Source: Apiotrichum sp. Y4204
Taxonomy: Eukaryota; Basidiomycota; Tremellomycetes; Trichosporonales; Trichosporonaceae
Direction: 5' to 3'
DNA length: 64,000 nt
Assembly: GCA_025531455.1 (NCBI GenBank)
Contig: JAMYHL010000002.1
Span: forward strand, 992,001 to 1,056,000
The translations under genes and the position numbers were made by a program. Positions 39,491 to 46,958 of this stretch are shown here, in pieces. Positions within the stretch are counted from its first letter, which is position 1. Each line of letters begins with the position of its first letter. The notes below the pieces were generated by a model, which was not told the DNA's origin, ran no database searches, and was given only the letters and a program-made list of their open reading frames with translations.

Positions 39491-39495
39491 CACTC
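39491..39495. repeat. target-site duplication, left copy
   Basis: cactc, repeated at 46954-46958 right after the 3' LTR. Confidence 0.95.
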
Positions 39496-39899
39496 TGTCA
39501 TGCCCTGCAAGACAAGCACGCGATGCGCGCCGAAGATCACCGAGCCCCGTGGGGACTCCACGAGCATCGGTCGAAACCGAGAAGTCCGTTCTCGAACTCC
39601 ACGCGCGCCGATGCCCTCGTCGGACCATCCGCAGAGGAGCGCTCCACCTTCGGCGTCGGTTAAGCGGAAGAAGCGAAGCGGGGTAGACAGCTCAATCTCG
39701 AACTCGACAAGTTCGAGATCTGACTATGGGGACCCATACGATATATAAGACGAGCAATTCGAGCTCGAACCAGGTAGCAAATGTATATCTTGCATTTCTC
39801 ATACGAACTTTCCTACAACCGACTGCAGTCTCCTTTGTACTTAGTTACCTCCGTGGGCTCCTGCCGCCAGCGGGATCCCTAGACACTCCCAGTCTTACA
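39496..39899 (+). repeat. 5' LTR
   Basis: 404 bp, starts TGTCATGCCC and ends GTCTTACA. A TATATAAG box at about 39742 lies some 34 bases before the sequence complementary to the priming site (39776), which is therefore the likely start of the transcript (U3/R boundary). Identical to the 3' LTR except at 39870. Confidence 0.97.
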
Positions 39900-39914
39900 T
39901 CATATACATTTGCT
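39776..39914 (+). promoter_or_regulatory. putative self-priming pair of the retrotransposon RNA
   Basis: AGCAAATGTATAT (39776-39788), at the predicted 5' end of the transcript, is exactly complementary over 13 nt to ATATACATTTGCT (39902-39914), which starts two bases after the 5' LTR where the minus-strand primer site should be. No TGG-initiated tRNA-complementary site is present. This is the arrangement of Tf1/sushi-type elements, which prime reverse transcription with their own folded 5' end. Confidence 0.75.
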
Positions 39915-39940
39915 CTTACCACGGAGATAACTTTATCGTT

Positions 39941-42900
39941 ATGTCTCGACCTACTCCTGCGAATGTGGGGCCTGATCAACCCACACGTAACACAAGGAGT
40001 CGCCCCTCAACAAGGAACCATACCGAGGGCAACCAAGGCGAATCTGTTCCCGAAGTAGAAACTTCGACCACGAACATAACTATACTCCACCCCTCGGGGG
40101 AGAGTCCGCCTACGAACGAGACAAATCAACAACGGGAACGATCCCGTGACGACACGCCCTCTAGGGCTCAAGGTTCTCGGACTCAACAAAATCTCGAACT
40201 AGAAGACTTCGAAAACGAAAATGACGTCATCGCCGACCAACGCTCTACACAAACCCAGAATCAACCAGTTCGTGAGGACCCCCCAGGCGGAGGGGACCAG
40301 AATATGGCCATACTACAACTTCTTCAACAATTCGTACGAAACCAACAAGCGGAGGACATACCCGCAAACAGAGCTATCGATCGCAATGAAGCACTACGTA
40401 CTAGAATTCAAGAACTGGAAAACGAACTCAGACAAACTCGTGAAGGAACAGAAATTACAGAGCGACGGCGCCGAGAACCGACCAGAGAATCGTCGAGGGT
40501 AGACCGGCAACTTAGCAACTCCGAAGTCGAAGAAAACCGATCGTCGAGCGCCAAACTACCGAAACCGGACACATGGAAGGGCGACGGCGAAAGCCTTCCG
40601 GCCTTCCTTGCGCAATGCGGCCAATACCTCGACTTCTATCATAAGGCGTACCCGAAAGACAAAGACCGCATTGCATTCACAGTATCTCTATTCCACGAAG
40701 GAGCCCGACAATGGTGGGCCCCTTATTATAACTCCGAAATCACCCCAATCTGGCTCGAAGACTGGAAGTTATTCAAACAAGAACTCAAGAACGTGTTCCG
40801 ACCCCTCGATCAGACCGAAGTGGCAGCAAACAAACTCCTTAACTTAACACAAACAACTACGGCCGCAGCTTACTATAAGGCGTTTCATCAACTGAGCGTA
40901 GACGCAGGTTGGGGAGACAAAGCGCTTAGGGACGTATTCAAGCGCGGACTTCACAGTCACGTCCGCGAAGCTATTGCAGCCATGGAACATCAACCGACTT
41001 CCTTCCACGAACTCGCCAGAGTCGCAATTCAAATTGATAGCAACCAACGAATGACCAACTCTTCCAAGTACCCCACAAACAACCGAACTACGAAGCAATA
41101 CGACAGAAAACCAACCACATATAACAAGGTTTTTAAGAAAACGACCTATACTAAAGACCGTCCAAACTACGCATCGACGAAAACCAAAACAGAATTCAAT
41201 TCGACAAACAAGGACAACGCGACCTGTTACAACTGCGGAAAGAAGGGCCACTTTAGTAGAGACTGCAAAGCCCCGAAGAAACAAGGATCGAACTCGTACA
41301 ATACAGACAACCGCGCGGCCCAAGCCATTAGTACGAAGACGAACCCGTTGGGAGCGATAGGTGCAATACTACGCCCCCCAGGGAATAAAGAACCACGGGT
41401 CGCAATGGCTAGAGTCGTAACTGAGCATCAAAGAAACGAGTACCCTCGAATCAACATGAGAGTAGCCACTACTTTCAACTGGAATACATCCACATCGGAA
41501 CCGGAAACCCAGAAACCAATGAGAATCGGACAAGACGACGACGGCGACTACATGTGGGAAACGGATAGCGAACTCTACTATCAAGACAGTGGCTATGACT
41601 CGGCGGAAGATACAACCTGGGACAACGAAAACGTCGAAAACTTCGACCACCATTGGCAATACGAGAACGAAGATTACGCAACAAACTGGGACCTTGTGAC
41701 AAACCGGAACGAAAACAATCAGCGATCCATTGTGGTTCCTCCACTTCCGGACTCGAACCCGCCCAGTTCGATTTTTGATCGTCCAATGGGCGTAGGACAA
41801 AACTTGTACTTACCCGTGGCCCACACAAGACGTCCAGACGAAGTGGTTCTAGCGTTCCTGGACTGCGGAGCTCAAACGAATCTCATCCGGACCGACCTCG
41901 CTATCGAATGGGGCCTAGAGACTCAAACCGCACCGATCCCGCTGGGAATGAAACTCGCAGATGGAACCAATTCACAGCATAAACTCAGCGAAATCGCACA
42001 CGTTCCCCTCTTGATCGGAGAGGGGTTCCCTCCAACTACGATCATCTGTTACATCTCGTCGAAACTGGATCTAAAGATCATCTTAGGAACACCATTCCTG
42101 GAAACAGTCAATCCCGTTATCGACTGGGTAAACAAGGAAATCAAACCTCAACCGCAAGTTACAATACGAACTGCAAAGACCGAGTTACAATCAGAAATAC
42201 CGACCGAAGAACTTCAAGAAATCCTCGACACAATACCGATCGAACTGGAAGACTATGCCGACGTGTTCAGCGAGACAAAAGCAAGCGTACTTCCCAAACA
42301 CAACGTATACGATCACCCAATCGACCTATTACCAGACACTACACCCACGTACGGGCCAATCTATTCGCTGTCACCCATGGAGCAAGAAGAACTGCGAAAG
42401 TACTTAGACGAAATGCTCCAAACCGGGTTCATCAGAGAATCCAGTTCACCTTGCAGTTCTCCCATTCTATTCGTCAAGAAGAAAGACGGATCCTTACGTC
42501 TATGCGTCGATTATCGAAAACTTAATAATATAACGGTAAAGAACCGCTATCCGTTACCGTTAATCAGAGATCTACTCGACCGCCTGGGCGGCGCGTCGTG
42601 GTTTTCAAAGATCGACCTCAGAGGGGCTTACAATCTAGTCCGCATTAAAGAAGGAGACGAATGGAAGACTGCTTTTCGAACTCGATTCGGCCTTTTCGAG
42701 TACACTGTTATGCCGTTTGGCCTCACGAACGCCCCGGCCACGTTCCAGAGGTTAATGAACAACGTGTTTAGAGACCTACTCGACTCCGAAGTTATCGTGT
42801 ACTTGGACGATGTCCTGATCTTCTCGAGAAAAAGGGAAGATCATACACGAACCTTGCGCAAAGTCATGGATAGGTTACGCCTCAATCGGCTGTACGCTAA

Positions 42901-45241
42901 ACACACCAAGTGTTCATTCTACCAAACAGAAGTAGCCTTTCTCGGGTACGTCGTATCCACAAACGGAACGAGAATGGACCCGAGCAAAGTCGAAGCCATC
43001 CATTCCTGGCCATATCCCCGAAACGTGAAAGACGTACAGAGCTTCCTGGGGTTGGTCAACTTTTACCGGCATCTAATGCCGGCACTGGCTAAAGCGGCTG
43101 TACCACTGTTCAACACGTTAAAGAAGGATTCCGTGTTCGAACTCACCGAGGACATACGCAACGCGTGGGACCGAATTAAGAAGCTCGCTTGCGAAGACGA
43201 GCTAGTCCGACATTTCGACCCAGAATTGCCATGTATTGTCGAGACAGACGCCTCCGATGAAGCAATCGGCGGTGCCCTATACCAGGAGGAAAACGGGACG
43301 AAAAGACCGATCGCATTCATGTCGCGAAAGCTCTCACCCGCCGAACAGAACTACCCGGTACATGATAAGGAGTTCTTGGCTATCGTACGAGCTTTCAAGG
43401 AATGGCGACAGTATTTGGAAGGATCACAACACGACATAATGGTCTATTCGGACCACAGAAGCTTGTGCTACTACACGACTACAAAAGACCTGAACCGACG
43501 CCAAGCACGGTGGATGGAATTCATGTCGGACTTCCACTACGTAATCACCTACAAACCCGGAAAACAGAATGTGGTTCCGGATGCTCTGTCTCGCCGACCC
43601 GACCATGGCCACAACGAGCTCGAACTATCAAATTCCGAGACCCGCTCAGATTTGGTTCGTGTTGCCGTGGCCACCACGTGGGCCGTCGAAGACCTGGGGG
43701 AACACGAACTGTTCACCAATTCCGAAGTTACACCGACGGTAGAGGAAATCGAGGAATTCAACCTCACAAAAGGACGAAGATGGTATTACAAAGACGAACT
43801 ACGCTATGCGCCCAAGGACATCAGGCCCACCATAATGAAACTACTACATGATCACCGATCGGCAGGACACCCGGGACAGAAGAAGACTGTATTCGCGGTC
43901 AATTCCAAGTACTGGTGGCCGACCTTGCGCCAAGACGTAATCAACTACGTCTCTTCATGCTTTGTTTGTCAAAAAACCAAGTTCTCTCGACAAAAACCAG
44001 CCGGCCTACTTAGACCACTACCGGTCGCGGATGGCCCATGGCAACACGTTACTTGTGATATGATCACTGCATTACCCCCACTTCCAAACATCGATCCCGA
44101 CAAACCTGACTGGGACGCCATCCTAGTGTTCGTAGACAGGTTTACCAAAATGGCACACTTCCTACCTACTACGAAGAAGTTAACATCCGAAGGATTTGCA
44201 GACTTGTTCTTCGAACACATTTATTGCAAACACGGACTCCCTAGGACCATCGTTTCGGACCGAGGATCGATCTTTACTGCAGCATACTGGAAAACGATCG
44301 CAAGACACCTACAAACCGATCATCGCTTATCGTCTTCGTATCACCCACAAACAGACGGTCAAACAGAAATCGTGAACCAATGGTTGGAACAGTACCTACG
44401 CTGCTACGCCAACATCGAACAAGACAACTGGATGTCGCTCCTACCACACGCAGAGTTCTGCTACAACTCTACTATCCACTCCTCTACCAATCTCACGCCA
44501 TTCGAAGCAAACAATGGTATCCAAGCTCGAAAGGGCTTGGACGAAGAAGGTACAATATCGCTTACCGGTAGCGGTGATGCCAACGTCCGACTGCAACACC
44601 TCCGAGAACTACACTCAACATTGAGAGGAACCTTAGCATCCGCCCGCGAAGAATACACCCATTACGCGAACAAGAAAAGGCGCGATGTTGAATACAAAGT
44701 AGGAGACCTCGTACTACTTAACGTGAAGAATCTCAAAGGCCTACAATCATCGCGGAAGTTGAGCGATCGCTACGCGGGGCCTTTCTCCGTACTCGAAGTC
44801 ATCAACAACGTCGCATACAAACTCGAGCTTCCCAAAGGCTCTCGAGTTTGGCCCGTCTTCCATGTGTCGCTACTCAAACGGTACAATGGAAGTCCATCTA
44901 CGGACAGACCTACTGCAATCATCGATAATTCCCCTACGCCCCTGTTTTTAGAGGGGAAGAGGGTCGTACGCGACCAACAACAATGGAAAGTCCGTTGGTC
45001 TACAGACGAAGTTACTTGGGAAACCGAGGAAACAATGGCCCCATACAAGAACGAATGGAAAGAATTAATCGACAACTTCCAACCACAACCGAAAAAGCCA
45101 AAACAAACTACGAAACTCAAGGGTTGGAAAGGCTACCAACTAATTTCCGAAGAAGAATGGAACAAGGCCCAAACGGAAGCAAACTCAGGTCCTCAACCGG
45201 ATACTCGACTCCGTTCTCGAACTTCCAAAATTCCGAGTTGA
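39941..45241 (+). CDS. gag-pol polyprotein (Ty3/gypsy)
   Basis: A single uninterrupted frame of 1,766 residues. Gag has a capsid-like helical region around residues 200-380 and a zinc knuckle CYNCGKKGHFSRDC at about 429. The protease motif is FLDCGAQTNLI at about 641, with Cys where Ser or Thr is usual. Reverse transcriptase carries YLDDVLIF near 954. RNase H begins near VETDASDEAIGGAL. Integrase has an H-H-C-C zinc domain (about 1300-1345) and catalytic Asp1373, Asp1440 and Glu1476 with the expected 35-residue spacing. The C-terminal segment (about 1664-1705, GKRVVRDQQQWKVRWSTDEV) resembles a degenerate chromodomain. Gag and pol are fused without frameshift, as in Tf1. Catalytic residues other than the protease change look intact. 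Confidence 0.96.
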   Translation: MSRPTPANVGPDQPTRNTRSRPSTRNHTEGNQGESVPEVETSTTNITILHPSGESPPTNETNQQRERSRDDTPSRAQGSRTQQNLELEDFENENDVIADQRSTQTQNQPVREDPPGGGDQNMAILQLLQQFVRNQQAEDIPANRAIDRNEALRTRIQELENELRQTREGTEITERRRREPTRESSRVDRQLSNSEVEENRSSSAKLPKPDTWKGDGESLPAFLAQCGQYLDFYHKAYPKDKDRIAFTVSLFHEGARQWWAPYYNSEITPIWLEDWKLFKQELKNVFRPLDQTEVAANKLLNLTQTTTAAAYYKAFHQLSVDAGWGDKALRDVFKRGLHSHVREAIAAMEHQPTSFHELARVAIQIDSNQRMTNSSKYPTNNRTTKQYDRKPTTYNKVFKKTTYTKDRPNYASTKTKTEFNSTNKDNATCYNCGKKGHFSRDCKAPKKQGSNSYNTDNRAAQAISTKTNPLGAIGAILRPPGNKEPRVAMARVVTEHQRNEYPRINMRVATTFNWNTSTSEPETQKPMRIGQDDDGDYMWETDSELYYQDSGYDSAEDTTWDNENVENFDHHWQYENEDYATNWDLVTNRNENNQRSIVVPPLPDSNPPSSIFDRPMGVGQNLYLPVAHTRRPDEVVLAFLDCGAQTNLIRTDLAIEWGLETQTAPIPLGMKLADGTNSQHKLSEIAHVPLLIGEGFPPTTIICYISSKLDLKIILGTPFLETVNPVIDWVNKEIKPQPQVTIRTAKTELQSEIPTEELQEILDTIPIELEDYADVFSETKASVLPKHNVYDHPIDLLPDTTPTYGPIYSLSPMEQEELRKYLDEMLQTGFIRESSSPCSSPILFVKKKDGSLRLCVDYRKLNNITVKNRYPLPLIRDLLDRLGGASWFSKIDLRGAYNLVRIKEGDEWKTAFRTRFGLFEYTVMPFGLTNAPATFQRLMNNVFRDLLDSEVIVYLDDVLIFSRKREDHTRTLRKVMDRLRLNRLYAKHTKCSFYQTEVAFLGYVVSTNGTRMDPSKVEAIHSWPYPRNVKDVQSFLGLVNFYRHLMPALAKAAVPLFNTLKKDSVFELTEDIRNAWDRIKKLACEDELVRHFDPELPCIVETDASDEAIGGALYQEENGTKRPIAFMSRKLSPAEQNYPVHDKEFLAIVRAFKEWRQYLEGSQHDIMVYSDHRSLCYYTTTKDLNRRQARWMEFMSDFHYVITYKPGKQNVVPDALSRRPDHGHNELELSNSETRSDLVRVAVATTWAVEDLGEHELFTNSEVTPTVEEIEEFNLTKGRRWYYKDELRYAPKDIRPTIMKLLHDHRSAGHPGQKKTVFAVNSKYWWPTLRQDVINYVSSCFVCQKTKFSRQKPAGLLRPLPVADGPWQHVTCDMITALPPLPNIDPDKPDWDAILVFVDRFTKMAHFLPTTKKLTSEGFADLFFEHIYCKHGLPRTIVSDRGSIFTAAYWKTIARHLQTDHRLSSSYHPQTDGQTEIVNQWLEQYLRCYANIEQDNWMSLLPHAEFCYNSTIHSSTNLTPFEANNGIQARKGLDEEGTISLTGSGDANVRLQHLRELHSTLRGTLASAREEYTHYANKKRRDVEYKVGDLVLLNVKNLKGLQSSRKLSDRYAGPFSVLEVINNVAYKLELPKGSRVWPVFHVSLLKRYNGSPSTDRPTAIIDNSPTPLFLEGKRVVRDQQQWKVRWSTDEVTWETEETMAPYKNEWKELIDNFQPQPKKPKQTTKLKGWKGYQLISEEEWNKAQTEANSGPQPDTRLRSRTSKIPS

Positions 45242-45373
45242 CCGAGAAACATGACGTAACCACCACATTCAGTTCGACAGTAATAGGCAGCCACCCGTAA
45301 ACACACAACTTGCATTCATATCACGCATAATATTATACCGAAGAATTATATACAATCACCAAACTCTACCTCC

Positions 45374-46244
45374 TCAGTCCTGGGCCGCGACCTGCTCTCC
45401 CTCCAACACCTCCATCTCGTCCACCTCGAAGACGAACGCATCCTCACCGGCGGCAACACCCTCCTCGATCTCCTCGTGCTCACGCTCGCGACGGGCACGC
45501 GCGGCGATCGCCTCGGCAAGCGCCGTGTCGGAAGCGGTAACCCACTGGCGAACGAGTTGCACAGCCTCCTCGAACTCGACGTCATGGATCACCGGGCGCG
45601 CCGGGAGCTCGAGCTCGAACGCGCGGTTCCGGTCGTCGCAAGTAAGAACCACCTACAATTAGCTATCACGAACACGATCCCCTTACCTTCAACACGTGAC
45701 GCAGGGCATCCTGAGTGGCCACCGGCAACTCAAGGTTGTGGTGGCGCGCGTCACGCTCGGCGAGCACCACAGGCCGGATGAACTCCTTCCTCTTCTCGAC
45801 AGGAATGATGATACGCGTGCGAGCACGCAGTGCACCGGCCACGCGCAGCGAGCAACCACGGTGGTCCACCATACAACGAAGACAACTATGGCATCAGCAA
45901 CTCGACAGTAATCGTACGTACCCGTTAATTGGCTTCCATTGGTTGTTCTTCTTCTCCATCGGACTATAGCAGTTCTTCTTGAGCGAAGTGCAATGCGCAC
46001 AACGATCAGCTTCTGCCTTGTTAGAACTATTCCATAGTACGAGAACGAACTTACCAGCAACGCCGCGAATAACAACCCCATGCAACTTGAGGCCATCCGA
46101 GTACGCGCGAAGGTTCTTGCGCGCCGAGGCCGACTTGGTGTTCTTCTGCGCTTTTTTAAAGCGCGCTTGAAGAGCGGCTAGACCAACCGAGCCGGCCGCG
46201 GGGACGAACGAATTGACGTTACGATAATTCTTCGAGCGAACCAT
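45374..46244 (-). CDS. antisense spliced gene inside the retrotransposon, putative zinc-cluster protein
   Basis: Minus-strand exons 46055-46244, 45922-46012, 45687-45885 and 45374-45652; introns 42, 36 and 34 nt with GTAAGT, GTACGT and GTAAGG donors and CTAAC-, CTGAT- and CTAAT-type branch sites. They give 252 residues. The first ~65 are basic and Ala/Ser-rich. Spliced exons 2-3 then create two C-x2-C-x6-C clusters, CAHCTSLKKNC and CLRCMVDHRGC, about 21 residues apart, suggesting a metal-binding module like a fungal zinc cluster. A domain with RIIIPVEKRKEFIRPVV and a C-terminal helical, Glu-rich part follow. It lies wholly between pol and the 3' LTR. Antisense orientation lets its introns survive retrotransposition. 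Function unknown; possible DNA-binding or element regulator. If the first intron is retained the frame also stays open. Confidence 0.78.
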
Positions 46245-46536
46245 GGCGAAGAATGAGCGTTGAAGAGAATGTTGCAAGAACAAGAGAAGGATCGTGAGAA
46301 CCTGGGTTAAGTATCGTGAGGCCGACACACACGCCCGCACAACGCTGCATCATCCTCGATGTCCTTCATGCCTCTCGCATCATCCATTCTCACATCATCG
46401 ACGAACTACACACACGCCCCCACCATCACTCGTCCGCGCCAAGCCACAACGACCTGCGCCCTTCGATCTACTCAGACATCATCCTTAATACGCATCCCAC
46501 CTCGCGGATTACCTCTTCGTCTTCGATCTCTCCTCT

Positions 46537-46549
46537 AGAAAGGGGAGGA
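46537..46549 (+). other. polypurine tract
   Basis: AGAAAGGGGAGGA ends exactly at the first base of the 3' LTR, the expected primer for plus-strand DNA synthesis. Confidence 0.88.
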
Positions 46550-46953
46550 TGTCATGCCCTGCAAGACAAGCACGCGATGCGCGCCGAAGATCACCGAGCC
46601 CCGTGGGGACTCCACGAGCATCGGTCGAAACCGAGAAGTCCGTTCTCGAACTCCACGCGCGCCGATGCCCTCGTCGGACCATCCGCAGAGGAGCGCTCCA
46701 CCTTCGGCGTCGGTTAAGCGGAAGAAGCGAAGCGGGGTAGACAGCTCAATCTCGAACTCGACAAGTTCGAGATCTGACTATGGGGACCCATACGATATAT
46801 AAGACGAGCAATTCGAGCTCGAACCAGGTAGCAAATGTATATCTTGCATTTCTCATACGAACTTTCCTACAACCGACTGCAGTCTCCTTTGTACTTAGTT
46901 ACCTCCGTGGGCTCCTGCCGCCATCGGGATCCCTAGACACTCCCAGTCTTACA
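46550..46953 (+). repeat. 3' LTR
   Basis: 404 bp, same ends as the 5' LTR and one base different (T at 46924 for G at 39870). Confidence 0.97.
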
Positions 46954-46958
46954 CACTC
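46954..46958. repeat. target-site duplication, right copy
   Basis: cactc, as at 39491-39495. Confidence 0.95.

Follow-up and report, generated by a model that had tools for sequence, protein, structure and literature searches.

The window, the 64-kb stretch of DNA analysed here (C94:992001-1056000 of the searched genome, 48.9 Mb in 182 contigs), holds a complete Ty3/gypsy element at positions 39496-46953. Its LTRs differ at 1 of 404 sites, the target-site duplication (TSD) is CACTC, and the LTR pair, the TSD and the order gag, protease, reverse transcriptase (RT), RNase H, integrase place it among the Ty3/gypsy elements (Table 1). Pfam matched the gag, zinc knuckle, RT, RNase H and integrase parts of gag-pol, and the protease and integrase-core models scored below their curated cut-offs. 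Both flanks of the element were also found on contig C139 (88% and 94% identity), where they lie 18 bases apart. C139 thus has the empty site, and the element must have inserted after the two sequences separated. The element, referred to here as a member of family F1, is a young insertion, as the single LTR mismatch and the empty site indicate. The recurrence of the window flanks on C139 at 88-94% and the many Zn_clus matches with an equally scoring partner on another contig are what would be seen if the assembly comprised two diverged sets, and it likely derives from a hybrid or a diploid; hybrids are described for some Trichosporon species in the available part of PMC6642101.

On the opposite strand, the interval separating pol from the 3' LTR holds a gene of four exons (46244-45374) with 252 codons and a stop. 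The sequence-only reading of this DNA had proposed four opposite-strand exons encoding 252 residues, separated by three introns of 34-42 nt with good donors and branch sites, and we found all of its coordinates, its strand and the length of its product to be correct; the introns measure 42, 36 and 34 nt, and each starts with GT and ends with AG. The predicted protein has two C-x2-C-x6-C groups with 16 residues between them, one encoded by exon 2 and the other by exon 3. Each group lies within a single exon, so the proposal that they form only by splicing did not stand as worded; it is their union in one polypeptide that needs splicing. In the genome both groups are in the same frame, with one TGA between them, in intron 2. 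The leader upstream of the antisense ATG is probably where the antisense promoter and the 5' UTR are located.

Table 1. Features of the F1 element in the window (window positions) and antisense genes of the other families (contigs).
Feature	Position	Strand	Remarks
TSD CACTC, left copy	39491..39495		Sequence and empty site on contig C139
5' LTR	39496..39899	+	404 bp, direct repeat of 46550-46953, one mismatch
gag-pol ORF	39941..45241	+	1766 aa; gag, CCHC, protease, RT, RNase H, integrase, SH3-like (Pfam)
Antisense exon 4	45374..45652	-	Stop at 45374-45376; acidic C-terminus
Antisense intron 3	45653..45686	-	34 nt, phase 0; changes reading frame; GT, AG kept in C17
Antisense exon 3	45687..45885	-	Contains cluster CLRCMVDHRGC
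Antisense intron 2	45886..45921	-	36 nt; in-frame TGA
Antisense exon 2	45922..46012	-	Contains cluster CAHCTSLKKNC
Antisense intron 1	46013..46054	-	42 nt, phase 1; GTAAGT...CTAAC...CAG
Antisense exon 1	46055..46244	-	ATG at 46244; conserved in two other copies
Leader, antisense ATG to 3' LTR	46245..46549	-	305 bp; 73% pyrimidine in 60 nt before ATG; probable (inferred) location of antisense promoter/5' UTR
3' LTR	46550..46953	+	404 bp, direct-repeat partner of 39496-39899
TSD CACTC, right copy	46954..46958		Sequence and empty site
F2 antisense gene	C124 and C150		277-278 aa
F3 antisense gene	C104		747 aa, coiled-coil-like N-part (by eye)
F4 antisense gene	C113		329 aa
F5 antisense gene	C172		441 aa
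F6 antisense gene	C171 and inside C17		405-420 aa

The best spliced-ORF score of the interval was 217, compared with a maximum of 198 over 150 dinucleotide shuffles; on its sense strand, the largest ATG-started spliced ORF has at most 101 aa. Spliced ORFs of at least 249 aa were present in 23 of 106 control windows, and ORF length by itself is modest evidence for the gene. The top model of the spliced-ORF finder for the window copy had 292 aa, read intron 1 as coding and included an extra upstream exon. We preferred the 252-aa model because of the conservation between copies described below (dN/dS of 0.098 and the divergence of intron 1). The same misreading of intron 1 occurred in F2 on C124 and in the F1 copy on C17, and in this F1 copy the finder overlooked intron 3 as well; the hand gene models were based on pairwise alignments.

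The spliced frame is under purifying selection

A second full copy of the F1 antisense gene was found on C17 (80102-80972), 84% identical to that of the window across all 871 bases. Its element has its own young LTR pair, with 2 mismatches in 405 sites, and the TSD TCTGG, which means that members of diverged subfamilies have brought the gene along in no fewer than two independent insertion events. This copy is without gag-pol residues ~303-1203 (the rest of gag, protease, RT and RNase H), and its antisense frame is open. The integrase end of the same copy (L034/L035, C17:79395-92395) is interrupted by a nested gypsy element of another family (F6, see below) with the TSD CATGG.

A Ka/Ks below 1 between copies was the check that the sequence-only reading had put forward, and this is what we observed: the spliced frames of the window and C17 agree at 225 of 252 residues, with a dS of 0.582, a dN of 0.057 and a dN/dS of 0.098. 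Third codon positions account for 78 of the 106 exonic differences (binomial p 3e-17), and when the same changes were placed randomly, in 500 trials, dN/dS ranged from 0.495 to 2.3 and internal stops appeared in 96%. For comparison, the same pair of elements gave a dN/dS of 0.149 in gag (302 codons) and of 0.058 in the integrase part (496 codons), and the antisense dS of 0.58 is within the range of the gag and integrase values (0.45 and 0.70). By exon, dN/dS was 0.066, near 0 (dS saturated), 0.058 and 0.286; exon 4, the loosest, has 18 of its 33 changes at third positions. A third copy, on C136, comprises exon 1 and intron 1, its similarity stopping inside exon 2, ~80 bases before the contig end; its exon 1 gave a dN/dS of 0.117-0.13 against the other two copies (0.066-0.13 over the three pairs).

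The introns behave differently from the exons. In intron 1, GTRAGT, CTAAC and YAG are kept in all three copies while the interior has diverged, and between the window and C17 its would-be residues changed at 10 of 14 positions, versus 27 of 252 for the exonic residues (Fisher p 6e-7). Intron 3 differs from the C17 copy at 11 of 34 sites, with GT and AG kept. These comparisons leave us nearly certain that the F1 antisense gene is real and protein-coding.

Antisense six-cysteine genes in five further gypsy families

Searches of the genome with pol gave 25 matches. We examined 17 stretches around the pol matches and the antisense matches, reading the interval from pol to the 3' LTR in those that included both. 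Five further gypsy families (F2 to F6), with pol 42-49% identical to that of the window over the aligned length, each have an antisense six-Cys gene between pol and the 3' LTR, so that the position defining aORF-3R genes (antisense, between the pol stop and the 3' LTR) was found in F1 to F6. Several copies together with protein-level selection were found for F1, F2, F5 and F6. Conserved splice sites support the introns of F2, F5 and F6; those of F3 and F4, each known from one copy, are predicted, and the 5' end of the F6 gene is uncertain. One F2 element (F2a) has LTRs identical across 287 bp and the TSD ATCTT. The antisense gene is thus resident in a whole group of elements, and its description as cargo, if this means a passenger peculiar to one element, was not supported, given these equivalents in five other families. 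The sequence-only reading had further held that related elements lacking the gene, or with random stops in it, would refute it. Within F1 this did not happen: the other full copy, on C17, has no stop in the spliced frame, and the C136 copy is truncated after exon 1 and intron 1. On the 3' side of a more distant element on C90, the spliced-ORF rule described below found no motif. The elements on C131, C93, C82, C144 and C132 gave no reading of this interval, being either incomplete or without a clear 3' side.

In the F2 pair, the antisense gene gave a dN/dS of 0.208 at a dS of 0.76, with both introns kept. The F5 pair (C172 and C113:928-1710; 900 to 1800 was the part read around the second copy) was compared in exon 2 and gave 0.079 at a dS of 1.25, with the splice sites flanking this exon kept and with indels in intron 1. 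For the F6 pair the value was 0.22 at a dS of 1.06; NG86 dS values above 1, as in F5 and F6, are near saturation. Splice signals kept around diverged intron interiors were observed in F1, F2, F5 and F6.

Several other loci were noted during these searches. The long coiled-coil-like N-terminal part of the F3 protein, recognized by eye (L038 9780-8224), was not seen in other families. On C157 (L041 1729-3404, F7), a four-exon gene for a 520-aa Cys6 protein adjoins an LTR and is followed by gag-pol on the same strand; F7 was not counted among the six families, as its orientation relative to its own family's pol is not settled and the locus is composite. A fragment on C145 (C145:96641-96896, L050 4642-4897) encodes CTHCETGRPC...CARCRTDNLAC with no pol match in the surrounding 9 kb; it is the sole weak F1 match outside the F1 copies and probably what is left of another antisense gene. 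At C111:1490-1600 there is a weak match of the F7 Cys6 protein (E 0.08, 38% over 41 residues) in an open frame of 585 aa.

The cysteine cluster and its relation to known domains

The cluster was evaluated with a uniform rule, in which the longest spliced ORF was taken under a fixed intron penalty and then scanned for the pattern C-x2-C-x3..9-C-x3..45-C-x2-C-x4..10-C. Of the 9 antisense intervals, 8 had the motif; none of the 9 sense intervals of the same DNA had it, nor did any of the 106 control windows, which were taken outside the element as 53 overlapping 2-kb windows read on both strands. The antisense interval missed was that of F6 on C17. Shuffling of residues recreated the motif in at most 1 of 20000 cases for each of seven proteins; pattern, test intervals and residue shuffles were all chosen after the motif had been seen. 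Without splicing, the pattern was absent from the six frames of the 64-kb window, and in an unspliced scan of eight stretches (L041 and L043-L049) L041 alone was positive. The six cysteines align in all nine pieces compared, including F7 and the C145 fragment; F2, with its 37-residue linker, was left out of this alignment.

Fungal Zn2Cys6 clusters have the spacing C-x2-C-x6-C-x5..12-C-x2-C-x6..8-C. F3, F4 and F7 have this spacing, and departures were found in F1 (linker of 16), F2 (4 and 37), F5 (last spacing of 9) and F6 (first spacing of 4). In the six proteins scanned, no Pfam family reached its cut-off (the best score was that of PF21725 in F2a, E 0.008, 16.5 of 27 bits), the Zn_clus profile PF00172 had no match, no bZIP match was listed, and PF04195 (TRP28) was not listed at E up to 10 with the HMMER filters on. 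Among the Zn_clus matches of the genome (at least 100 at E<=0.001, with 150 of 170 candidates scored), none listed lies in the antisense genes of F1 to F7. The PDB gave no relative of the F1 protein. Basic stretches are seen by eye in the proteins of F2 to F6, those of F1 being weak, which suggests that the F2-F6 products are nuclear.

Comparison of the F1 protein with a cross-species library (the 7999 top word-sharing candidates scored) gave a single match, the Logan partial protein P0001, in which 62 of 63 exon-1 residues are as in the C17 copy. The Cys exon of F3 (942 candidates) likewise gave one, the Logan partial protein P0002, 99% identical to F3 over 83%; a structure prediction made for P0002 alone was uninformative (mean pLDDT 37.6). 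From their sequences, both matches look like proteins of the same species. As a control, pol residues 780-1279 matched 7970 proteins at E<=1e-30 among 7977 scored (120 listed); the relatives among the matches listed include a JGI protein (65% identity), proteins of Trichosporon asahii and Tremellales sp. (60%) and one of Cutaneotrichosporon oleaginosum (56%). By this nearness of pol, the host is probably a member of the Tremellomycetes, perhaps of the Trichosporonales. The library thus includes related fungi, in which either the antisense protein has not been predicted or its divergence is too rapid. In IMG/VR, four pattern matches were obtained, none of which was confirmed, and neither there nor in the plasmid search was a related locus found.

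Divergence, possible exchange and descent of the antisense genes

In two families the antisense gene is more diverged than the rest of its element. In the F2 pair, gag-pol has a dS of 0.25 (1525 codons) versus 0.76 for the antisense gene, and in the F6 pair pol has a dS of 0.13 (1210 codons) versus 1.06, a value near saturation. The two F6 elements have LTRs that are 95-97% identical, and their antisense proteins differ at 122 of 402 aligned residues. The F6 antisense module itself (L042 2219-3634 and L034 4274-5665) is 74% identical, the other parts 93-97%, and this local jump in identity suggests an exchange of the module. Either the F2 and F6 antisense genes have passed from one diverged element to another, which template switching during reverse transcription would permit, or they change unusually fast, even at silent sites; exchange would be the simpler account.

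Between families, the antisense proteins of F3 and F4 show a clear relationship (phmmer E 3e-10, hhalign 95%). Between F1 and F2, phmmer gave 10-12 bits, with E-values, calculated for nine sequences, of 7e-5 to 2e-4 (F2a) and 0.004 to 0.02 (F2b), and hhalign gave a probability of 17% (E 0.0015), the weak similarity being located around the second Cys group. F2 and F6 also reached 17% in hhalign, and the remaining pairs at most 5%, many of their best alignments falling on the Cys cluster. A common descent of the genes of all six families is at most plausible on sequence similarity. Two introns of F1 resemble two of F2 in position and have the same phase. The phase-1 intron lies 4.7 codons (F1) and 2.7 codons (F2) before the first Cys, and the phase-0 intron 55 and 65 codons after the last; the middle intron of F1 has no F2 counterpart, and the phases in F3, F5 and F7 do not follow the F1/F2 pattern. 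The pol proteins of F1 and F2 are ~49-53% identical. If the shared introns are homologous, they would have survived within retroelements across a pol divergence of about half the residues.

Discussion

The whole is best explained, and we think probably so, by a resident spliced antisense gene whose product is a nuclear, DNA- or chromatin-bound regulator of the element, comparable to HBZ. The gene would be read from a promoter of its own, situated in the leader or in the 3' LTR. A pyrimidine-rich stretch before the ATG fits a separate 5' UTR in F1, F2a and F5 (68-73%), is weak in F3 (55%) and is absent from F6a (37%). The antisense pre-mRNA would then be spliced in vivo. The genomic RNA, being the opposite strand, would present no splice signals, and the introns would survive each round of retrotransposition; it is by this strand logic that the antisense orientation preserves them through reverse transcription. 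The encoded proteins would be small or of medium size, with basic stretches and a six-Cys cluster that probably binds zinc, and would act in the nucleus, bound to DNA or chromatin, to regulate the element as HBZ does. The regulatory role taken by itself is a suggestion to which we give slightly less than even weight. The F6 elements, with near-identical LTRs and an antisense dS of 1.06 (near saturation), count against a protein tuned to its own LTR, in which case gene and LTR would be expected to change together.

The main rival is that the product is an accessory of the replication cycle, acting in integration targeting, nuclear entry or nucleic-acid handling, or an anti-silencing factor, and not a regulator of transcription. 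The Cys cluster and the basic stretches noted by eye would fit binding of nucleic acids in general, the excess of antisense over pol divergence in F2 and F6 could reflect conflict with the host as well as an exchanged module, and in the C17 copy the antisense frame is intact although gag-pol residues ~303-1203 are missing. Against this, the gag-pol ORF of the window is intact and the antisense protein is not needed for any known enzymatic step; we consider this alternative rather improbable, while giving it more weight than those that follow.

The antisense transcript might instead work as RNA, by pairing with genomic RNA or triggering siRNAs, with the ORF incidental. The available parts of PMC7264820 and PMC10186651 report that antisense transcripts of retroelements can silence, yet purifying selection acts on the spliced frame, across the frame shift caused by the 34-nt intron of F1, and in three other families, which makes an RNA-only function very unlikely. 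Slightly less credible still is the recent capture of a host gene as private cargo of this element. Introns are present, and GC3 in F1 is 0.71 in the antisense gene versus 0.535 in gag-pol; however, the two values are nearly equal in F2 (0.705 and 0.694), the gene is carried by two full F1 copies and a truncated one and has equivalents in five other families, and a search of the genome with the F1, F2, F3, F5 and F7 proteins gave, beyond the antisense genes, only the weak matches on C145 (E 0.05) and C111 (E 0.08). Finally, this GC-rich DNA often has long ORFs on the opposite strand (the F5 sense ORF has 529 aa, and the control windows gave the long spliced ORFs counted above), but a mirror ORF or annotation artefact of the GC-rich strand is practically dismissed by the dN/dS values, the third-position bias, the conserved splice sites, the motif enrichment and the short sense-strand ORFs of the F1 interval, a comparison made in F1, F2, F5 and F6, with F3 and F4 as single copies.

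Returning to the resident regulator, a bolder version would be that of an ancient family of Cys6 antisense regulators, a fungal counterpart of HBZ, that has had introns since before the families split, shielded by its orientation, and that forms a partly exchangeable cassette. We advance this only as a tentative idea that is more apt to fail than to hold, and do not rate it higher because the F1-F2 similarity is weak (hhalign 17%) and the shared introns are not exactly placed. An antisense dS of 3-8 times the pol dS, as in F2 and F6, would be expected of a gene that served element-specific control or acted against host defence. Retroelements are expected to lose sense-strand introns on moving, and coding introns persist here in recent insertions, which makes them a natural example of introns surviving in a retroelement and of shielding by antisense orientation. 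The role of antisense extra genes in LTR elements also becomes testable, with a defined Cys6 protein under clear selection and six families at hand.

Comparison with known systems

Among the papers listed in literature searches, judged by titles and abstract openings, none dealt with an intron-bearing antisense gene with a Cys cluster in a fungal LTR element. As Zhao et al. 2011 are said to have described, Boty-like elements of Botrytis cinerea carry an antisense gene, brtn. Likened here by description only, Boty is likewise a fungal Ty3/gypsy element with an additional antisense gene, in an ascomycete and thus in another phylum. The fungal Zn2Cys6 factors (PF00172) share with the present proteins six cysteines and two C-x2-C groups, whereas a match to their profile is absent here.

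Some gypsy elements are drawn with an additional ORF of unknown function in the available part of PMC2864245. The plant aORF-3R elements (Grande gene23, RIRE2 and Retand TRP28) have the antisense gene between pol and the 3' LTR, as here. According to the accessible portions of PMC7264820 and PMC11963269, the antisense product of Grande is nuclear, and TRP28 of Retand is predicted to bind DNA and occurs in 97% of Retand clusters. TRP28 has the domain PF04195, which was not listed for the six antisense proteins here, and the word intron occurs 0 times in the main texts of these two articles, as far as they were available, in contrast to the coding introns described here. HBZ and APH-2/3/4 are likewise antisense genes at the 3' side. 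As stated in the part of PMC10186651 at hand, HBZ has a spliced form and promotes latency, APH-3/4 inhibit LTR activity, and the proteins are nuclear, APH-3 being also cytoplasmic. HBZ belongs to the bZIP proteins and its expression starts from the 3' LTR, whereas the genes described here have several coding introns and a Cys6 cluster; the likeness is one of analogy. Antisense extra genes as such are therefore already known from Boty brtn, Grande and Retand; what is new is the conserved coding introns, the Cys6 cluster and the presence of such genes in six families of one genome.
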